From contig RSEE01000012.1 in the NCBI GenBank assembly GCA_003971905.1, forward strand, positions 558,001 to 622,000: 64,000 bases of DNA, in the 5' to 3' direction. Under the pieces are notes generated by a model. The model worked only from the letters and a program-made list of their open reading frames with translations. It searched no databases and was not told the DNA's origin. Source of the stretch: Moniliella sp. 'wahieum' (taxonomy: Eukaryota; Basidiomycota; Moniliellomycetes; Moniliellales; Moniliellaceae). How positions within the stretch are numbered: position 1 is the stretch's first letter; every line of letters starts with the position of its first letter. Shown here piece after piece: positions 1,820-33,973 of the stretch. The translations under genes and the position numbers were made by a program.

Positions 1820-2278
1820 TTACTTGAGCACCTTCTTCTTGCGCAGCTGCGACGAGTGGCCGCACTTGCGCTTACGGCAGTTGGTCGCACGGGGAGGAAG
1901 GCGCGCGTAGCACTTGCGGCAAATCTGCTTCTCCACGTTCGTCTTCGACGCGAGGACCTTGAGCGATGGCTCAATGATACCACCCAGCAGGCTAGCGGAG
2001 AGAGGCGAGACCGGTTAGCCACACATCGTGAATCAAAAAACGGCAAGAAACTAGCGTGCGTACCTCAGCGACATGTGCAGGGTAGAGTCCTTCTGAATGC
2101 CGTAGTCGGCCAGGGTGCGGCCGTCAGCCAGCTGCTTGCCCGCGTAGAGCAAGCGCTGCTCCGCGGCAGGGATACCCTCGCGCGCAAAGTTGAGCGCCTT
2201 GACCGACTCGACAGTGGCCTCGGGGGCCACGGCGAGAGCCAGGGTGTTGCCCCGGACCGAGTTCACAAAGATTTGCAT
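1820..2278 (-). CDS. Ubiquitin-like domain fused to 60S ribosomal protein eL40, with a highly divergent ubiquitin moiety
   Basis: Two exons: 2278-2064 and 1991-1820, with intron 2063-1992 (72 bp, GTACGC...CTAG). The product has 128 residues. Residues 77-128 are a normal-length (52 aa) eL40, starting IIEPSLK, with the zinc cysteines of CRKC and NCRKRKC. Residues 1-76 align to ubiquitin without gaps but match at only about 45 of 76 positions by hand count. Lys27, Lys48 and Lys63 are kept. Lys6, Lys11, Lys29 and Lys33 are replaced by N, N, L and R. The hydrophobic patch reads V8, L44, S70. Arg72 and Arg74 are S and L, so the tail is LLGG. Normally the fusion is cut after Gly76 by deubiquitinases to give ubiquitin and eL40. 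Here the cleavage Gly-Gly survives, but E1 activation of the released domain is doubtful. The reading frame is intact throughout, unlike many neighbours, so frameshift cannot explain the divergence. Confidence 0.9.
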
Positions 2279-2283
2279 CCCTC

Positions 2284-2395
2284 CTGTCGGCGGGGACGGG
2301 TTAGCGGGGGCTGGGCACGCAAGAGCAAAGGGGCTGGTGCTGTGCTAGAGCAGAGTGGGGCAGGGAGCGCACAGGGTGCGGTGGCGGGGACCTAC
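2284..2395 (-). other. Probable 5' UTR intron of the ubiquitin-eL40 gene
   Basis: On the minus strand a good donor (AAG|GTAGGT) at 2395 pairs with an acceptor (CCGACAG) ending at 2284, five bases before the start codon. The upstream stretch has no ATG in frame with the ubiquitin. Introns just before or after the start codon are common in fungal ribosomal-protein genes. This is inferred from splice consensus only. Confidence 0.5.
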
Positions 2396-3160: not shown

Positions 3161-4806
3161 ATGGCCAACACCCGCCCTTGGAAGCGCCCCCATCGCTTCT
3201 GGCTACGTCAAGCCCAGCCCATCATGCGAGCGGCTGTGCGCGTCTCGACCGTGTCGCCAACGTTGGCCCTGCGCCGCGGCATCGCCTCCGCCGCGGTGGC
3301 GCGTGCGCCTGCTCCGGCACAGAACAAGTCGGACCAACCCCCCCCAGAACGCCCTGCCTGGGAGGTCAACAGTGCCGCCTATCTTGCCCGTCCGCTACCC
3401 TCGCTGCGGGAGTTGCGTGCCACCCTCTCACCGAGACGCCCTCCAAGGCGGTCCTCAGCAACCTCGAGCCTGCCTTCACTGCGGAGCCTGGTCCCTTTTT
3501 TGACGAGCACATGACGTTTGTCGGTGGTCGCCCGCGCCCTGGTATGACCACCTTCTACATGCGCGACCCGTACTTTGAGGGTGCCATGATCCGCACCAAC
3601 AACCTGCTGAGCGAGATGCAGCGTTGCCTTGAACTGCGTGGGATCTTGCGTGCGCGTGAGCTTCCGCCGCCGCCGGAAGAAAAGTACCGTCACAACACCC
3701 ATTGGGTCAATGTGGAGCTGGCCAGTGCTCGTCTGGCCGGTGCCAAGCCGGGGCATGAAGACAGCATTGGCAAGAACTATGTCACGTTGCGACGCTTCCA
3801 GTTTGTGGAACTACTGGATCGTCTCAAGGAGATTGCTCGCTACCTGCCCTACATTGCCCGGTGGTGTGCTTTCTGGCTTGCCGCCGCCTTTTGGGACGGA
3901 GCCGCACCCGTCGATTATTGGGCAAGAGGCCGCTTCGGACCGCGAGATTGCGTTGGCCAAGCAGTTGACTGAAGAGTTGGACAGGTTTGCTGCACCGACG
4001 ACAGCCATGGGCCAGGCGCGCAAGGCTCGGTTCAATATTGCGCTGAATGCTCCCTCGGACCCGGATGTGGAGGTGGTACGCAACCAGCCCAACCCGGGCG
4101 CCATCCTTCAGGCTCGCCGACCGGAGGACCGGTTTGCCAAGATGTGGACCATGGACGTCTCAGGCCGTATTCACAGCTCTGGCGCGCGTAAGCACGCCAA
4201 CGCGTCCGTGTGGATCGTGCCCTCGCGCACACGCGATGCACCCGGGCAAAATGGGCTGACGGTTGAGGCGCTGGAGCCGACGAGTGAGACGATGGCCGAA
4301 GCGGTTTTGAAGGCGCATGAGGGAGCAGCTGCTGAAGAAAAAGTCGACTCGTTCAATCCCTTGCCCCCAGAGCACATGCTCCGCACCGTGCCCCAAGGTG
4401 TGGGTTCAATTTTGGTCAATGGTGAACAGCTGGGTCGGTACTTTAGCAACTACAAGGACACGGCCTATGTGCAGCGTGCATTCAACGTCCTCGGTCTTGC
4501 TGGTGCCTTCAACGTGTATGCCCTTGTATCTGGTGGTGGCATGACGGGCCAGGCGGGTGCGATCGCCCATGGTCTGGCCAAGGCCTTGGTTGGCGCTGCT
4601 CAAGTCGGCTGGATCACCACCAAGTCCGCGCCCACTGGCATCACTCTCACCGCAGACCACAAGCCAAGGCCCAAGCCGAGTTGGCAGCTAAGATTCTCGC
4701 TGTTCTGCGTAAGGACGGTGTGTTGCGTCGCGACCCCCGCATGCCCGAGCGGAAGAAGACAGGCAAGCCTGGCGCACGCGCATCCCATACCTGGGTCAAG
4801 CGTTGA
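3161..4806 (+). CDS. MRPS9: Mitochondrial small-subunit ribosomal protein uS9m
   Basis: The C-terminal third is the uS9 fold: GRYF, then VSGGGMTGQAGAIAHG, then a tail LRKDGVLRRDPRMPERKK ending WVKR just before the stop, which corresponds to the uS9 tail that reaches into the ribosomal P site. The N-terminus, MRAAVRVST followed by arginine/alanine-rich sequence, looks like a mitochondrial presequence. A long fungal-type middle region (about 300 residues) precedes the uS9 core. Two in-frame starts are possible, 3161 (good AAG-ATGG context) and 3224 (directly at the presequence); the first is listed. The frame must change near 3430, 3860 and 4670, each consistent with one lost base. The protein acts in mitochondrial translation. 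It is divergent to the ubiquitin-eL40 gene. Confidence 0.85.
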
Positions 4807-20421: not shown

Positions 20422-23400
20422 ATGGCCGACGCCGCGGCCAGCGCGGCCACCGCCAGCGCGTCACCTATGTCCTCCCGCTGCCCCGCGAACTCGGCGGCTG
20501 GCGCAACTCCCTCGGCCCCACCCATGCCCCGCTCCCGCCCCCCACCCACACGTTTGCCGTCCCCCCGCTCGTCCACCCGCGACCCCGCTCGCCTCGCCCG
20601 TCGTGGCCCTCTTCTCATCCCCCTGCACCCCCTGACAGCACCCCCTCCGATGCCGAGTCCGATTCTACTGCGCCTCAACCCGACCCCGTGTCTGCCACAG
20701 CCCAGCCGAGGCCATCCCGGTCTCGCTCCTCCCCTTCCCACCCGCGGCACATGCTCCCTGTCACCTCCCTTGCCCTCGACCTCACCACCTGTGTCGAAGG
20801 TGCTGACGAGCATCCACCCGAGCCCTCACCGACGAGCGCATCGAGCAGGTCGATGACGTTCTTCCGCCATCTCTGGGCGGTGGATTTGCCTCAACCCGTA
20901 TGCGTACCCCCCAGCGGCCCCGCGGCCTGTTGTACACGGCTGGACGCGATGCATTGATTGCCTCGTGGCAGCTGAACCTGCCTATGACTTGGTCTACGGA
21001 CACCCAACCGGACCCCGCCCAGCCCCTTCCTATCGCCCCTGGCGTGTGACACAACCTTACTGGACCCTTCACCCCGTGGAAGCGCTCAGTGCTGCTGGTC
21101 CTCCTCCGGCACCAGATGGCTTACTCCGCCGTCCCATCTTCCGCCAGGGGATTCAAGCGCACTCGGAATGGGTCAACGATCTCCTGCTCGTTAACGGGAA
21201 TCAGACTGTCCTATCCGCCTCGTCCGACCGACTGATCAAGGCATGGAATCCCCACGACCCAGCCTCCCATTCCACCTCCTTTACCCTAGGTAGCCACGAC
21301 GACTTTGTCAAAACCCTCGCGGCGCCGGCCTGGCAACTGGGTGCCGGACAAACCCATACCATCTTCTCTGGCGGCTTGGATCGGACGGTCAAGATGTGGG
21401 ACATGAATGCCAACCCTTCCAGACCACGGACTCGTCCTCGGCCGTGTTGGGTCCAGGCCGTGGCGCAGACAATGCGTCTGTCCCCCAGCCCGTTCTCACG
21501 CTCAACCAAGATGTGGATGAGCTGCCGTCGTCGGTCTACAGTCTTAGTGTGAATGGAAGCGGGAGTCTGATCGGGGTGGGATGCTCGGCGAATGAGGTGT
21601 CTGTGTACGATACGCGGAGTCGGATGCGGGTGGCCAAGTTGGTGGGTCACACGGGGTATGTTCGATCGGTGCTCATGTCGGCCGACGGACGCCACCTTCT
21701 CTCTGCCTCCTCCGATAGCACCGTGCGGCTGTGGTCGATCGCCGAGCAACGTGCGCTGCACACGTTTGAACATCATTCCGACTCGATCTGGGCGCTGTAC
21801 TCGCGCGATCCGTACGAAAAGGATACTCTCACCTCGTTTTATTCGGCCGACCGCGTAGGCGATCTTTGCAAAGTCGATTGGTCCGATGCACCCGACATTG
21901 TGAGCGGCGAATGTATTTTGTTGGCACGCAATCGTCCTTCCAAGTTCAACCGCCGCGGCAGCCATGTGCCCATTCCGTTGGACCCCGCCGTTGGACCCCA
22001 TGGCCTTCCGCCTCCGCATCACGGACCAAGTCACCAAGGCATCCACCGCATCGTGGCTGCCGACGATGCGTTTGTCTTTACTGCTTCCGACACTTCCTCC
22101 TCCGTCTTGGCCTGGCCCGATGTGCCCAAGCACAAGGACCGTCTTGCCAAATACCCCGCCATTGCCGCCCGTGCCCTGTCGGGTGCCGGGGGGGGCGAGA
22201 CGAGCTGGGCCAAGCAGGCCAAGAAAGCAATGCAGACCACGGATATTTCGTCGGCCGTCGAGATGGCCGGCATACCAGCTTGCAGTTTAATCTCCTTGGG
22301 CGACGACCAGAGCCCCTTTGACGATCGCCCGGCTGCCGATGGGTCCAGCACGGTCGACCGATCGACGACGCGAAACGTGCGCCCATCCCCGGGGTCAATG
22401 TCCCTGCTGCGAGACGGGGCCCATTCGGCCGCGCCGCTGTTCCGGCAGCCGTGTGCGCGCGTGTCGGGTGGGGTGGGCTTGATCCGCAGTTCCATGCTCA
22501 ACGACCGCCGCCATGTGCTGACGATGGAACACGTGGCTCGGTCGGAATCTGGGACGTTTTGCTGGGCGTTTGCCTGGGCTTTTTTGAGCGCCGAGCGCTC
22601 ACCCAGCTCGCGTTGGACGAGGAGGCTCTGACTGGCTCCGCGCTCTTGACCTCCGTCGCGGCTCCCTCGGCTACCGACATGAGCCAAGAGGCCATCACGT
22701 CCCTCCTTACCCAGTCGCCGGCGGACCTGCTCGAGTTGATCCGAGACCGGATCGAAGGTTCGGATGCGGCGCCGGCGTGGTGCACCACCGACGTTCGCGC
22801 TGGACTCTTGTCGGTCCATTTGCAGAGCAACACCTGCTTTGACGCCGAAATGTACCTGGACGATGCCGCGTTTGCCAGCAAAGAGGGGTCCGAAGAAGAT
22901 ACCAGGGGTACGTTGCGCCCTCTTTCTCTCTTTGGCCGGTTGGGCTAGTCTGTAATTTTTTTCCCGTACTGACCAAGGACTGTGCTTGTTGGGCAGTCAA
23001 CATGGGCCGCTGGGTCCTTCAGAACTTGTTCAGGGGGTTCATTGAGCAGGAGATTCGCGCTCGCAGTGGCTCGTATCGTGGAGCACAGTTGAGACCTCCG
23101 ACAGTGACGCAAACAGACACACTGCAGCAGAGGAGCCCAAAGCGTTCTCTTCTAGCCGGGATGCCCCCAAAGCGTTGGCGGCGCCTTTAAGTGCTAGCTT
23201 GGCCATCCCGCCTTCCGACAGACAATGGTGCTTCCTCCTGGCTCGGATTGCGGGGAACCCACCCAATGGTCGCCTTACCGCCCCTCTGTCCAATTGGACG
23301 TCGAAGTCGAGATGAAGGCACTGCAAGACGCATGGCAAGCCGTGCTTCGCGCCCAAGCGGCCACTTTGCCTACAAATACGGCAGAAAAGCACAATGGTGC

Positions 23401-29003: not shown

Positions 29004-32000
29004 TCAGCGCGAAGAAAGAGAAGCCAAATCGAAATTGTTACGCGCAGAAATGATCTTGGGAAGAGAAAGAGGTTTGGTGAACCAGTCAGGGAGATGGTGT
29101 GCACCTGGAGTGTAGTGGACTTTAATTTCGCCTCGGTGGATGCGTTCCCGCACCTCGTGGTACGAGACGTCAATCTCCCGTATTTTGCCTAGGCTGCCGA
29201 GCTTTTCGGCCAACGCTTTGGCAGCGGTGTTGTCAACAAAGAGCTCAATCGGGTGATTAGCCTTGCAGACACCAAGTTCAAACAGTATGTTGCGAATGAA
29301 TAGAGCATCTCGAAGGCCATCTCCCATGGCTAGGTATTCAGATGCTGCTGTGTTGCTCACACCTTGATTTTGGGACTTGGAGCCCCAGGATACAGGCACA
29401 CCGAAAACAAAAACAACATGGCCCGAAACGGAGTGAGAGTTGCTCTTGTCTGATGCAAAGGAGGCATCGGTGTGCAGCTCGAGTAGAGGGCGAGATCGGT
29501 TGGGTGTGAGGCACAAAGAGTAGTCAGACGTACCGGCGAAGAAACGTAATAGGTCCTCCGCTGCGCGTCGGTGGGCGGCGGACGGGTCGTCCATAAACCG
29601 CGCTAAAAAGGTAGCCGCAAAGAGGGCATCAGGCCGGGACATACGAGCCGCCCACAAGCTGGATCCGACAATAGAACGGTAGGCACGGTGCTCGTCTCGA
29701 GTGGCACGCTTTTCGTGTTCGGGTCGCTTGGGAGGCGGAAGTTGGTGGCCGATTGGAAGGTAGCGGGGCCGTGAGGTGAGGTGATATGTCATGCGCGGCA
29801 AGCGTCTCAGCGATGAATTTGGGTTGGCTGATGTACAGTCGTCCATCGATACGGTCGTATTGGCAGCCGAGATGGAAACGTAGGGGGCCGTTGGACTTAA
29901 TTTGGATGCTGCGCCTTAATTCCACTAAGAATTCATCATACGCTTCTTGGGACCGACACGCGACCAAAAAGTCGTCAGTGTGGACGGCGATTAGGATCAG
30001 GCCAAGAGGTTCGGTGCGACGACGTATGAACAGGCAAGGCTCTGATTTTAGGCTAGTGAAGTGGAGTCGGTCGCAAAGGAAAGTGCGGAGCCAATCTCCA
30101 AAGTTGGCCCCGCTCTGGTGCAGGCCATAGAGACTTTTCTTGAGTCTCCAGCAATGACCGGGCGCTTCTGGGAAGAAGGGGGGTGGTCGAACATAGACGA
30201 GCTCGTTGATATCGGCATAGAGGTAGGCAGCTTCCACATCGGCAGAAAATAAGTGGAGGCCATCAGCTTCGGCCAACGCAATTAGCGTGTTGACGGCAGC
30301 AGTACGAACGGCAGGAGCAAAAGATTTCGCCCATGTGCCAGGAACTTGCCGGTGCCCTCCCACAACGTAGCGGGCACGGTACTTGAGGAAGTTAGCATCC
30401 GCATCCGTCTTAGTACCTATGACCCACATGCCGGGAAGGGGTTTGATCCCTGGGGGGATGGGTACAACTTCCTTCACGTCACGCTCGTCAAAACGCCGAA
30501 GCTCGAGGCGCATTGCCTCGAGTACGCCATCAAAGGCAGGGTGACCCACCAACTTCTTGATGTTCTTGGGGGCCACCGGGACCCCATCGGTGGTCAGTAT
30601 GACCTCGGTGTCACTTGCCGCGGATTCGATTGCGAGTGCGATGGGGGGCGAGCTTGGCTCCGAAGCAGGTAGCATGGATGTGTCCGGCGCTGGTCCGAAA
30701 ATACTCACCAAAGCCTGCATTCCTAGGGCGGAGAGGGCGGCCGGGTTGCCAAAGATGCTAGGGGCCTTGTTGACGAGCAGGGAAAAGGTGCCATCGCGCA
30801 AATTGTCGTTGGCTGGAATGGACAGGTCGAGGGTGGAGCGTTGATACGCGCTTGGCGAACGGGATTGCGACGCACGAGTGGGGACGGCTGTATCGGTCAG
30901 GGGCACGGTCACGGGGGCGAGCGTGTCGGTGGGGAAGAGAGGGGAGGGGGATAGGGCGGGAGAGGAAGGGGAAGTGGAAGAGGGAGGGGAAAGCAGGACT
31001 TGGTGGCCAGTGTCAACGGCATCTTCTGTGATAGTTTCATTTTCTTCGGCTTGCTTTGCCTGGCGTTGTGCCATGCCTGCGGGGTCAGATGCAACAGGTT
31101 GGGGGGATACATGTGGGGGGTTGGAGTTGGTGGGAGTGGGGCCAGGCTCTGAATTCTCATTTTCGTTGGCTTGAGCCGGGCGATGTGCCTCATTAGTATC
31201 GCGGGTCAGTTCATCTATCGCAAAACGCACACGCCGGGGTGGGGAGCTGTCTGACTTCCCACCAGCACCCATTTCTCCGCCCCCCCGCACCTCTCCGCCA
31301 CCAGCAGGGACAAGGGGGTTCAGATGAAAGTGCGTGGGATATTCGGTGGTGTACGGGACATGTGTCCAGGTGGACGGCTTTTTCCAACGGAATCCAACTT
31401 GGCCGTCGTCCTGGTGGATGGCAAAGAGCCACCCTTCGAACCGCGGCCGTGCCCGTAACCCACCAACATTGCTGGGACGGCCCGCGGACCAAGTTTGCCG
31501 CCCTCGCGTTGGTTGGGCAATAGGTGCAGGTAGGCAAGAGTGCCAAAACCGCGCATGCGAAGGGAGGGTTTGAAGCCATGGTACCGGACAAATCGGCTGT
31601 CCCCACCCAGTGCTTTCGGCGGCGACTGGTTGTGTGCATATGTGGCCGCCAACAAGCTGTGTTCCCACCACTCGTCGGGAGTCAATCTGTTGGCGATTAC
31701 CATGAGTCGAGCGCGATCCGTAATCGATCTTATGGCGCGTTCGGCGACCCATTGGACGCACTTTCGCCAGGATTGGTGCGCTCGCTCACTACTCCCAGCT
31801 CGCAGTAAAACTCGTCCATTGCGGTGGTGAGTTCAGGCGCATTGTCAGAGCGGACCGTCTGAAGGGGGCGGTCGGGATGTTGGCGATGCTCGCGCCGGAT
31901 GAAGGCTTGAAGTTCGGCTGTGGCATCACCCTTGGACACCAGGGGTAGCGTCCAGGTATACCGCGTAAAGTCGTCGACAATGATAAGGGCGTAAGTATGA

Positions 32001-32709
32001 CCCCGCCGCCTTGGCGGGATATGTCAAGGACGTCGAGGTGGAGGAGAGAGAAAGGGCGAATGGTTCGGATTGGGCGTCCAGTCGTGGCGTGGGGTGGGGC
32101 AGTGGCTCTGCTTAATGCGCATGGTGCACAGTGCCACGAGGACCGGACTAAAGCGATGTCGCCACTGTTGACCCGTTCGAATGCTGGGTCATCCGACGTG
32201 AGGGATGAAAGTTGATCTAGAGGTGCATGATTCCATCGGATGTGGGCGTTTTTCACCTTGACCAGGGTTGCATCAAGGTTGAGTAGCGAAGTGGCGCTGT
32301 TGGCTGTGGCTGTCGTATTGGGCGCCAGAGTAAGGGAATAGCTTGAGTCGGCGGCGAGACGAAAAGGTTCGCCGTGTCGTCCGAGATAGAGACCATGGCC
32401 ACCTGGAGGGATCCAGCTGCCAATGCCTGCGATAGATAGATGGTAAGCGCTGAGCAGGTTGGTCGGGAAGGTGGGGCAGTACAAGCTGCCGGGTAGGTGG
32501 ATGCGGATAGGGGCTCCGTTCTGGGTTTGAATGTACATAGAGATGGTGCCAATGCCTTCAGTGTATGCGATCTGTCCGTTTGCCACTGCTATGGGCTCGC
32601 GGTGTGGACGAAGATTGATAAACGCACTTCGTTCATTGAATACGGATGGTCTCGCACCTGAATCGTGTTGCGCAGGGAGGTTGGCTGGCTTAGGGCCTCC
32701 CGCGCTGTC
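29004..32709 (-). CDS. pol: Copia pol: protease, integrase, reverse transcriptase, RNase H
   Basis: The region begins directly after the gag UAG, in the same frame. A protease DSGA motif lies near 32650. Next is the integrase zinc-binding H/C segment, with RWNHAPLDQL and HCAPCALSR (32110-32250). The integrase core has LHLDVLD, VRSDNAPE and, after a frame change near 31760, VAERAIRSITDRAR, giving D,D,E. A connection domain with NQSPPKALGG follows. RT spans about 29850-30500 with WVIGTKTDAD, LFSADVEAAYL, KKSLYGLHQSG and the catalytic box VHTDDFL. RNase H follows with LHTDASFA, ASEYLAMGDG and VDNTAAKALAE, ending at 29004. Frame changes near 32000, 31760, 31390 and 29790 interrupt it. The proteins copy the element RNA and integrate the DNA. 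Confidence 0.9.
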
Positions 32710-33973
32710 CTAGTAGGGGTGAGGAGGGATTGTGGACACGACAGACTCCGTTTCAGTCGATGTGGCTGACTCGGGTGGTGTAGTGGCTGCCATAGGGGTT
32801 ACTGCATGGGCAGATGAGGTGGTCTGGGCTGTCGTAGCCGGCCGGCTAAAGTGGCCGCCACGTTGGCCACCACGGTGACTTCCTCTGTACCCGCTGCCAC
32901 CTCGGCCTCGTCCGCGGCCTGTCACCGTACTGCTTGTTTGGCTGTGCGACGTGGCTTCCGAAGGGGCCGTACTGGAGGGAGCTGGGCTTGAACTGGAGGT
33001 ACTGCCGTAGTTGGAGCCTTTGAGTTCGCTCACTGCTCGGCGCAATTCGGCGTAGCTGCTGTTACGATGGAGGTGCAACCACCCCTGATCAGTAACGCCT
33101 TTCCGTAGCATCTGTGCTAGACCAATCTCGTCCAGCTTGGACTTGGACGTCATCTCGTACTGGGTTACCGCCACAGTGAACTCATTCAGGTATTGGCGGC
33201 CCGACTTGGTGCCCATTTTGAGAGTGAGAACCTTTATGAGGATATCACAGATCTCAGTGTCTGAAACGGTGCCGTACAAATCACGCAGAGCATGATAGTA
33301 TGCAGACCCTAGAGCCGGCGTGCCATCGCCGGTGATCTGCTGGACGACGTCGGAGTCTATCCACGGGAGTAGAATGTTGGCCAAGTGAGCGTCCAGTTCT
33401 GCGTTATACCCGTCCAGGGCCTTGCCCTGTTCCAGATGCTCACGCGCTCCAGGGATAATCTGGATACGAGGGAGGAAGATCCGGGTCCATAACCAAAACG
33501 AGCTGTTGTTGTGGAAACGCTCGTGGTACGGCACGTTGGTGCGAGTGGCACTACGGAGGAGCTTGTCGGGAGTCAAAGCCCACGGGTTGTCGTCGACGGC
33601 CGGAGTTGACGATAAGGCACCTTCGTTCTTGCTAGCATTGGGTGGATTCTCACATGATAACATGACAATGGCTTCTGTGGTCGTCTTTTCGCTGTACCCA
33701 AGCTTGATACCAGTGTCCTGTAGCTGTTTGAGGGTGATGTGTTCGGGAAACAATTTGAACATGTTGCGAATGCGGTCGGCGAGGGTGGCGAGTCGTTCGC
33801 GGTGTTGTCGGGGCCCACGGGGGGGGTTGAGGTGTAGGGGTAGATTCACGCGATGGTGTCAGCGGCGGGGAGGCGTGGTCAACTCCGACGGGAGTGGTGC
33901 TCTCTTCTGCGGCGGCAGTTGGTGAAGTAGGGGTTGAGGAGTTGAACCAAGACTCCTGAGTCTGAGAGCTCAT
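32710..33973 (-). CDS. gag: Copia gag with C-terminal RGG-type tail
   Basis: Starts considered are 33973 (MSSQTQESW) and 34006 in the same frame. After one frame change near 33850 the capsid-like domain runs without interruption: NMFKLFPEHITLKQL, YHALRDLYGTVSDTEICDIL, KVLTLKMGTKSGRQYLNEF and LDEIGLAQMLRKGV, the helical UBN2/copia gag type. The C-terminus is serine/threonine-rich with an arginine/glycine tract (GRGRGRGGSGYRGSHRGG) where many copia gags carry a CCHC zinc knuckle; no cysteine knuckle is present. The frame ends at a UAG (32710-32712), after which the same frame stays open into pol. Gag should form the virus-like particle and bind element RNA, here probably through the RGG tract. 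Confidence 0.8.

Follow-up and report, generated by a model that had tools for sequence, protein, structure and literature searches.

The window analysed here, a stretch of 64,000 nucleotides from the fungus Moniliella sp. 'wahieum', carries on its minus strand a gene in which a ubiquitin-like moiety is fused to the ribosomal protein eL40. The whole coding region with its intron covers positions 1820..2278 (-) and, once spliced, amounts to 129 codons with the stop, encoding a protein of 128 residues (76 ubiquitin-like and 52 of eL40). Exon 1 (2064..2278, -) comprises codons 1-71, which match PF00240 at 76.9 bits, and two bases of codon 72; this codon (AG/C, Ser) is split by a GT..AG intron of 72 bases (1992..2063, -), and exon 2 (1820..1991, -) continues the frame to a TAA stop codon (1820..1822, -). 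If the intron is left in place, translation meets a stop shortly past codon 72. The ubiquitin-like moiety, residues 1-76, ends in SLLGG and spans 1979..2278 (-) with the intron 1992-2063 inside it, and the eL40 moiety of 52 residues (1823..1978, -) is standard and matches solved eL40 chains along its full length. The two halves are joined in frame at a GG junction, and Gly76/Ile77 (GG-II; 1976..1981, -) is the predicted cleavage site, recognised by its sequence, at which we infer that the protein is cut. The unbroken frame, clean intron and standard eL40 half of the preliminary description of this DNA are borne out by the spliced model. Directly upstream of the ATG lies a putative 5′-UTR intron (2284..2395, -; AAG/GTAGGT...GACAG/GAGGG), proposed because of its splice consensus and because the loci C8 and C23 carry a similar CAAG/GTAAG.

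Less than about 1 kb from the fusion gene, an adjoining gene with a ribosomal S9/S16 domain (about 3178-4806, +) presumably encodes mitochondrial uS9. Farther along the window, a WD40 protein (21396-22631, +), whose Pfam matches are of WD40 type only, resembles WDR48/UAF1, a deubiquitinase cofactor. A retroelement at 29629-33849 (-), which we take to be of Copia type, combines a reverse-transcriptase ORF (PF07727) with an upstream ORF that is gag-like by position only and has no Pfam match. Elsewhere in the genome, type-1 rhodopsin matches occur as divergent pairs ~5 kb apart (C39:347762-353770 and C23:537075-543208), with no cyclase match beside either pair in a cyclase search of the genome; adenylyl-cyclase-like genes with leucine-rich repeats are present, and a genome search for IFT57 gave no match, a combination that suggests a fungus without flagella.

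Copies of the fusion and divergence of its ubiquitin-like half

The genome searched comprises 69.5 Mb, and the locus counts from these profile searches are lower bounds. PF01020 gave ten eL40 matches that correspond to nine loci, the one at C91 falling into two pieces. All nine loci found join eL40 to the altered moiety and carry a GT..AG intron of 60-81 bases at the same position; in none of the nine is eL40 joined to canonical ubiquitin, and the second, normal Ub-eL40 copy whose existence the preliminary description had considered was not found among them. By sequence distance the loci form four groups: C12 (the window copy); C8 and C23; C110, C11, C91 and C5; and C43 and C51. The frame is open throughout in the window copy, C110 and C8, and broken in the other six, at places that differ between copies.

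Canonical ubiquitin, the presence of which had been proposed as a check, is encoded elsewhere in the genome by Ub-eS31 and polyubiquitin genes. It stands in front of eS31 at the eight loci found, seven of which match at 75-76 of 76 residues and one of which is broken past residue 63; the seven fully read loci also form diverged groups with near-identical pairs. The canonical set consists of 23 units starting MQIFVKT, in 12 Ub-eS31 and polyubiquitin loci, where 13 units agree with one sequence at 76/76 positions, two have one difference, and eight are frame-broken by assembly gaps. Single-base gaps abound in the assembly, and frame breaks strike canonical ubiquitin units as well; the short frame-breaking gaps in eL40 and eS31 loci perhaps reflect uneven base accuracy. 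Diverged groups, mostly with near-identical copies inside each, suggest a duplicated, polyploid or hybrid genome assembled as separate haplotypes. Seven eS30 loci were found, and the upstream sequence at two of them fits an ATG, then an intron, then GKVHGS, so from these two eS30 looks unfused. A separate exon at C44 and C160 is NEDD8-like. Among the PF00240 matches read (all of the 59 but 12 weak ones) there was no stand-alone copy of the moiety, and of eight stretches in viral contigs that fit a pattern none was confirmed as a relative.

Aligned without a gap to human ubiquitin, the moiety of the window copy is identical at 45 of 76 positions (59%) and differs at 31, the very figures first put forward. 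Against the canonical ubiquitin of the same genome it is identical at 43 and differs at 33, and so lacks the (near-)identity with the genome's other ubiquitins that a normal copy would have. The replacements listed earlier all recur in our alignment: four lysines (K6N, K11N, K29L, K33R), the patch residues (L8V, I44L, V70S) and the tail residues R72S and R74L, to which I30N and Q31F are added. Both tail replacements occur in nine of nine eL40 loci, with codon 72 reading AGC in each, so that the Arg72 of a conjugated ubiquitin is Ser throughout; K6, K11, K29, K33, R72, R74, V70 and I30 are absent from all readable copies. Retained in the window copy are K27, K48 and K63 and the GG site, again as described, together with R42, Q49, H68, F4, I36, L71 and L73, and the residues SLLGG/II are identical in all nine loci. 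One shared replacement is found at 27 positions in every readable copy, and five further positions differ from ubiquitin in all copies but vary between them. Because those 27 replacements are common to every readable copy, the bulk of the change evidently predates the split of the eL40 copies, and the moiety is by all appearances now constrained, less tightly than true ubiquitin. For the moiety, AlphaFold2 gave a model too weak to confirm the ubiquitin fold, with a pLDDT of 72.8 and a pTM of 0.45 on a thin alignment of five rows, compared with 92.5 and 0.77 for canonical ubiquitin on the same five rows.

The dN/dS of each half, another check proposed at the outset, was computed among the genome's own copies, with frame-broken codons and their neighbours masked, for six of the nine eL40 copies (15 pairs). 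Between groups, the ubiquitin-like half has a dS of 0.39 to 0.77 (about 0.4-0.8) and a dN of 0.012 to 0.075. Its dN/dS is 0.017-0.102 in 14 of the 15 pairs; the fifteenth, C43-C51, lies within a group and has one replacement and zero synonymous changes. The eL40 half has no replacements (dN 0) in any of the 15 pairs, over 31-52 codons compared, and all 11 variable positions among the 128 in the masked data fall in the ubiquitin-like half. For each of the six pairs tested, a neutral model would give so few replacements with a probability of between 1.1e-7 and 7.2e-14; these pairs share branches and are not independent. Purifying selection on the moiety is strong. In the ubiquitin halves of the seven Ub-eS31 genes, 11-32 synonymous codon differences between groups leave the amino acids unchanged, apart from two single-copy singletons.

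The E1 gate and predicted release from eL40

A search with PF10585, the sole E1 family searched and one whose result says nothing on UBA3 or other E1s, found six places, four of them UBA1-type and two that look UBA2-type. In yeast Uba1, the pocket that receives Arg72 is made up of Asn574, Gln576, Tyr586 and Asp591, and phage selection found Arg72 to be essential for the ubiquitin E1; the NEDD8 E1, according to the same study, tolerates uncharged residues at position 72, Ser rarely, and accepts varied residues at 71, 73 and 74 (PMC3731359). All four UBA1-type loci carry these residues, N574, Q576, Y586 and D591 by the numbering of yeast Uba1. At C50 the UBA1 gene and solved UBA1 chains align gaplessly across the pocket, whose residues were placed there by the coordinates of yeast chain 5l6h_A (1024 residues; query 2-95 to 539-632); they are read in one frame at C2, while at C9 and C38 assembly gaps spread them over two. 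Nothing here points to an adaptation of UBA1 to Ser72. Since R72S faces an unchanged UBA1 pocket, we infer that the released moiety should stay outside the ubiquitin pathway.

Among ubiquitin-specific proteases, USP36 reportedly grips ubiquitin at Phe4, Leu71, Leu73 and the Ile36 patch, its glutamates lying opposite Arg72 and Arg74, and it accepts the Leu that FUBI has in place of Arg74 (PMC10611586). The contacts F4, I36, L71 and L73 are all kept in the moiety; of the ten USP-recognition residues of the surface and tail named in that source, six are kept and R72, R74, I44 and V70 are changed (PMC10611586), so that cleavage could be poor. Read at the level of sequence, then, part of the reported protease contacts is kept and the reported E1 gate is lost. 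With K27, K48, K63, R42, Q49 and H68 retained, ubiquitin-type binding may still be in use.

Yeast eL40 made without ubiquitin is poorly expressed, with partial rescue when SUMO stands in for ubiquitin; eL40 aggregation is not raised when ubiquitin is removed, and release of ubiquitin from eL40 is required for 60S maturation and function (PMC6721733). FUBI-eS30 with a mutated GG stays uncleaved and disturbs 40S maturation (PMC8354635). In Giardia the ubiquitin variant on eS31 reportedly remains attached, and the authors were aware of no other case in nature where mature ribosomes carry an uncleaved form (PMC6721733). Because Giardia eS31 keeps its ubiquitin variant, the assumption of cleavage in the Moniliella fusion is somewhat weakened.

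Comparison with other divergent ubiquitins

The gene shares with canonical Ub-eL40 (yeast UBI1/UBI2, human UBA52) its architecture, its eL40 half and the GG/II junction, but its ubiquitin half differs from the genome's ubiquitin at 33 of 76 positions. In this combination, a GG fusion is kept, the moiety has diverged, eL40 is conserved and canonical ubiquitin is encoded elsewhere, which is the pattern of a divergent ribosomal-fusion ubiquitin. A close analogue on a small-subunit protein is the moiety of Caenorhabditis Ub-S27a (eS31), presumably UBL-1, from which the present case differs in having eL40 as its partner and in an eS31 that keeps canonical ubiquitin. There, too, and in protists, a ribosomal-fusion ubiquitin has turned ubiquitin-like (PMC6721733, PMC10457151), a divergence read as speaking for a role as chaperone (PMC6721733), and divergent Ub-eS31 is known in nematodes and several protists (PMC10457151).

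Divergent Ub-eL40 had previously been known only in Giardia, with a caveat by the authors, and is reported from two lineages of Plasmodium as well: leaving P. gonderi aside, UbL40 of the Vivax lineage has 11-23 differences and that of Ovale has 13, and most forms keep the seven lysines (PMC10457151). Like these, the Moniliella gene has an eL40-fused ubiquitin that escaped conservation while eL40 and polyubiquitin remained conserved; unlike the Plasmodium forms, with their 11-23 or 13 changes (PMC10457151), it has 33, with Arg72 and four lysines lost. Among the cases with compared counts, the moiety is the most altered constrained Ub-eL40, and its E1 gate is lost. Searches of open-licence papers, judged by title and the start of abstracts, listed no divergent Ub-eL40 of a fungus, a weak negative. 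The eL40 chain of PDB entry 7qca was a weak match to our eL40 search. This chain, from a microsporidian, may also be divergent.

With FUBI-eS30 (FAU) the fusion has in common an N-terminal ubiquitin-like tag on a ribosomal protein, a GG cleavage site and Leu at the position of Arg74 (PMC10611586, PMC8354635). FUBI, however, has 74 residues, is 36% identical to ubiquitin and sits on eS30 (PMC10611586, PMC8354635), whereas the moiety has 76 residues, aligns gaplessly, is 59% identical to human ubiquitin and sits on eL40; neither an eS30 fusion nor the two-residue deletion near residue 8 that marks FUBI is present. NEDD8 is comparable in its identity to ubiquitin (44/76) and in having a residue other than Arg at position 72. 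Human ubiquitin and NEDD8, though, disagree at 32 positions, and of these the moiety has the ubiquitin residue at 16 and the NEDD8-specific residue at 3; the idea of a NEDD8 fused to eL40 was rejected for this reason.

Probable function of the moiety

The most probable explanation, which we hold with fair though by no means full confidence, is that in this lineage the ubiquitin on eL40 lost its role as a modifier and is now a dedicated, cleavable N-terminal folding tag. What is observed is the architecture, the fixation in all loci found, the constraint, and the loss of Arg72 with the UBA1 pocket residues unchanged; expression, help in folding, cleavage and non-conjugation of the moiety are proposed by analogy. 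The moiety would be made in cis with eL40 and would keep it soluble and productively expressed, the part that ubiquitin plays in yeast. It would then be cut off at GG/II by a ubiquitin-specific protease, as analogy with yeast Ub-eL40 and FUBI-eS30 leads one to expect. The freed moiety would go uncharged by UBA1 and leave the ubiquitin pool unaffected, and the net effect would be to uncouple the production of eL40 from the supply of ubiquitin. The preliminary description had offered two interpretations, a cis tag like FUBI or a new modifier. Its view of a real, constrained protein that is no longer a normal ubiquitin stands. A FUBI-like cis tag would fit, because Arg72 and four lysines are lost while the GG junction is kept and because SUMO partly replaces ubiquitin on yeast eL40 (PMC6721733); for the modifier, as for a moiety left on the ribosome, no positive evidence emerged.

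Alternatively, the moiety might never be removed, so that eL40 would carry it on the ribosome as an extension peculiar to this lineage. R72S, R74L, I44L and V70S do hit contacts that USPs use, and Giardia eS31 is reported with an attached ubiquitin variant, but we consider retention unlikely given that SLLGG/II is invariant across all nine loci, that yeast 60S maturation and function need the release of ubiquitin from eL40, and that Giardia eS31 was the only uncleaved form in nature that the authors of the yeast work knew from mature ribosomes (PMC6721733). A freed moiety could instead be charged by another E1, most easily that of NEDD8, and be conjugated to targets of its own. The retained GG, the constraint on the moiety, the latitude of the NEDD8 E1 at residue 72 (uncharged residues, rarely Ser) and at 71, 73 and 74 (PMC3731359), and the separate NEDD8-like gene, with which a NEDD8 pathway is probably present, all suit such a new ubiquitin-like modifier. 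Nevertheless, only apparent UBA1 and UBA2 genes came from the PF10585 search (UBA3 and other E1s lie outside it), just 32 of 76 residues are common with human NEDD8, and no stand-alone copy turned up among the PF00240 matches read, so this is quite an unlikely outcome. Its specific form, in which R72S bars the moiety of the escaped eL40 fusion from the ubiquitin pathway and the NEDD8 E1 loads it instead, is very unlikely; if true, every eL40 produced would free one unit of a ribosome-coupled signal.

A limited role in the ubiquitin pool, whether as an acceptor that cannot itself be charged or by competing in free form for ubiquitin-binding proteins, might draw on K27, K48, K63, H68, R42 and Q49 of the window copy, through which the moiety could be ubiquitinated or bind some receptors; with the main binding patch altered by L8V, I44L and V70S, and with Arg72 and four lysines lost, we find it decidedly unlikely. 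Lastly, single-base gaps are abundant, and six of nine eL40 loci and eight of 23 canonical units are frame-broken, as one would see were the gene a sequencing error, a pseudogene or a contaminant. Yet the window copy, C110 and C8 are open throughout, the breaks differ in place among copies and occur in canonical ubiquitin too, and 27 replacements are common to every readable copy under strong selection (dN/dS 0.017-0.102 in 14 of 15 pairs). Sequencing error or a pseudogene was rejected on the shared replacements and the strong purifying selection, in line with the earlier judgement that error is unlikely, and an artefact or decaying copy of any kind is improbable in the extreme.

The dedicated folding tag, our preferred reading, bears on a debate over why ubiquitin sits on eL40, whether as a way to couple the supply of ribosomes and ubiquitin or as an aid to eL40 folding. 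In this lineage coupling and folding seem to have been parted by evolution: the residue for activation is lost and the moiety is still selected. The moiety is, in essence, a separation-of-function allele made by nature, and the residues that it keeps narrow down what the folding of eL40 and the removal of the tag may require. The host is a fungus, and the escape of the ubiquitin on eL40 from conservation is therefore not limited to protist parasites.
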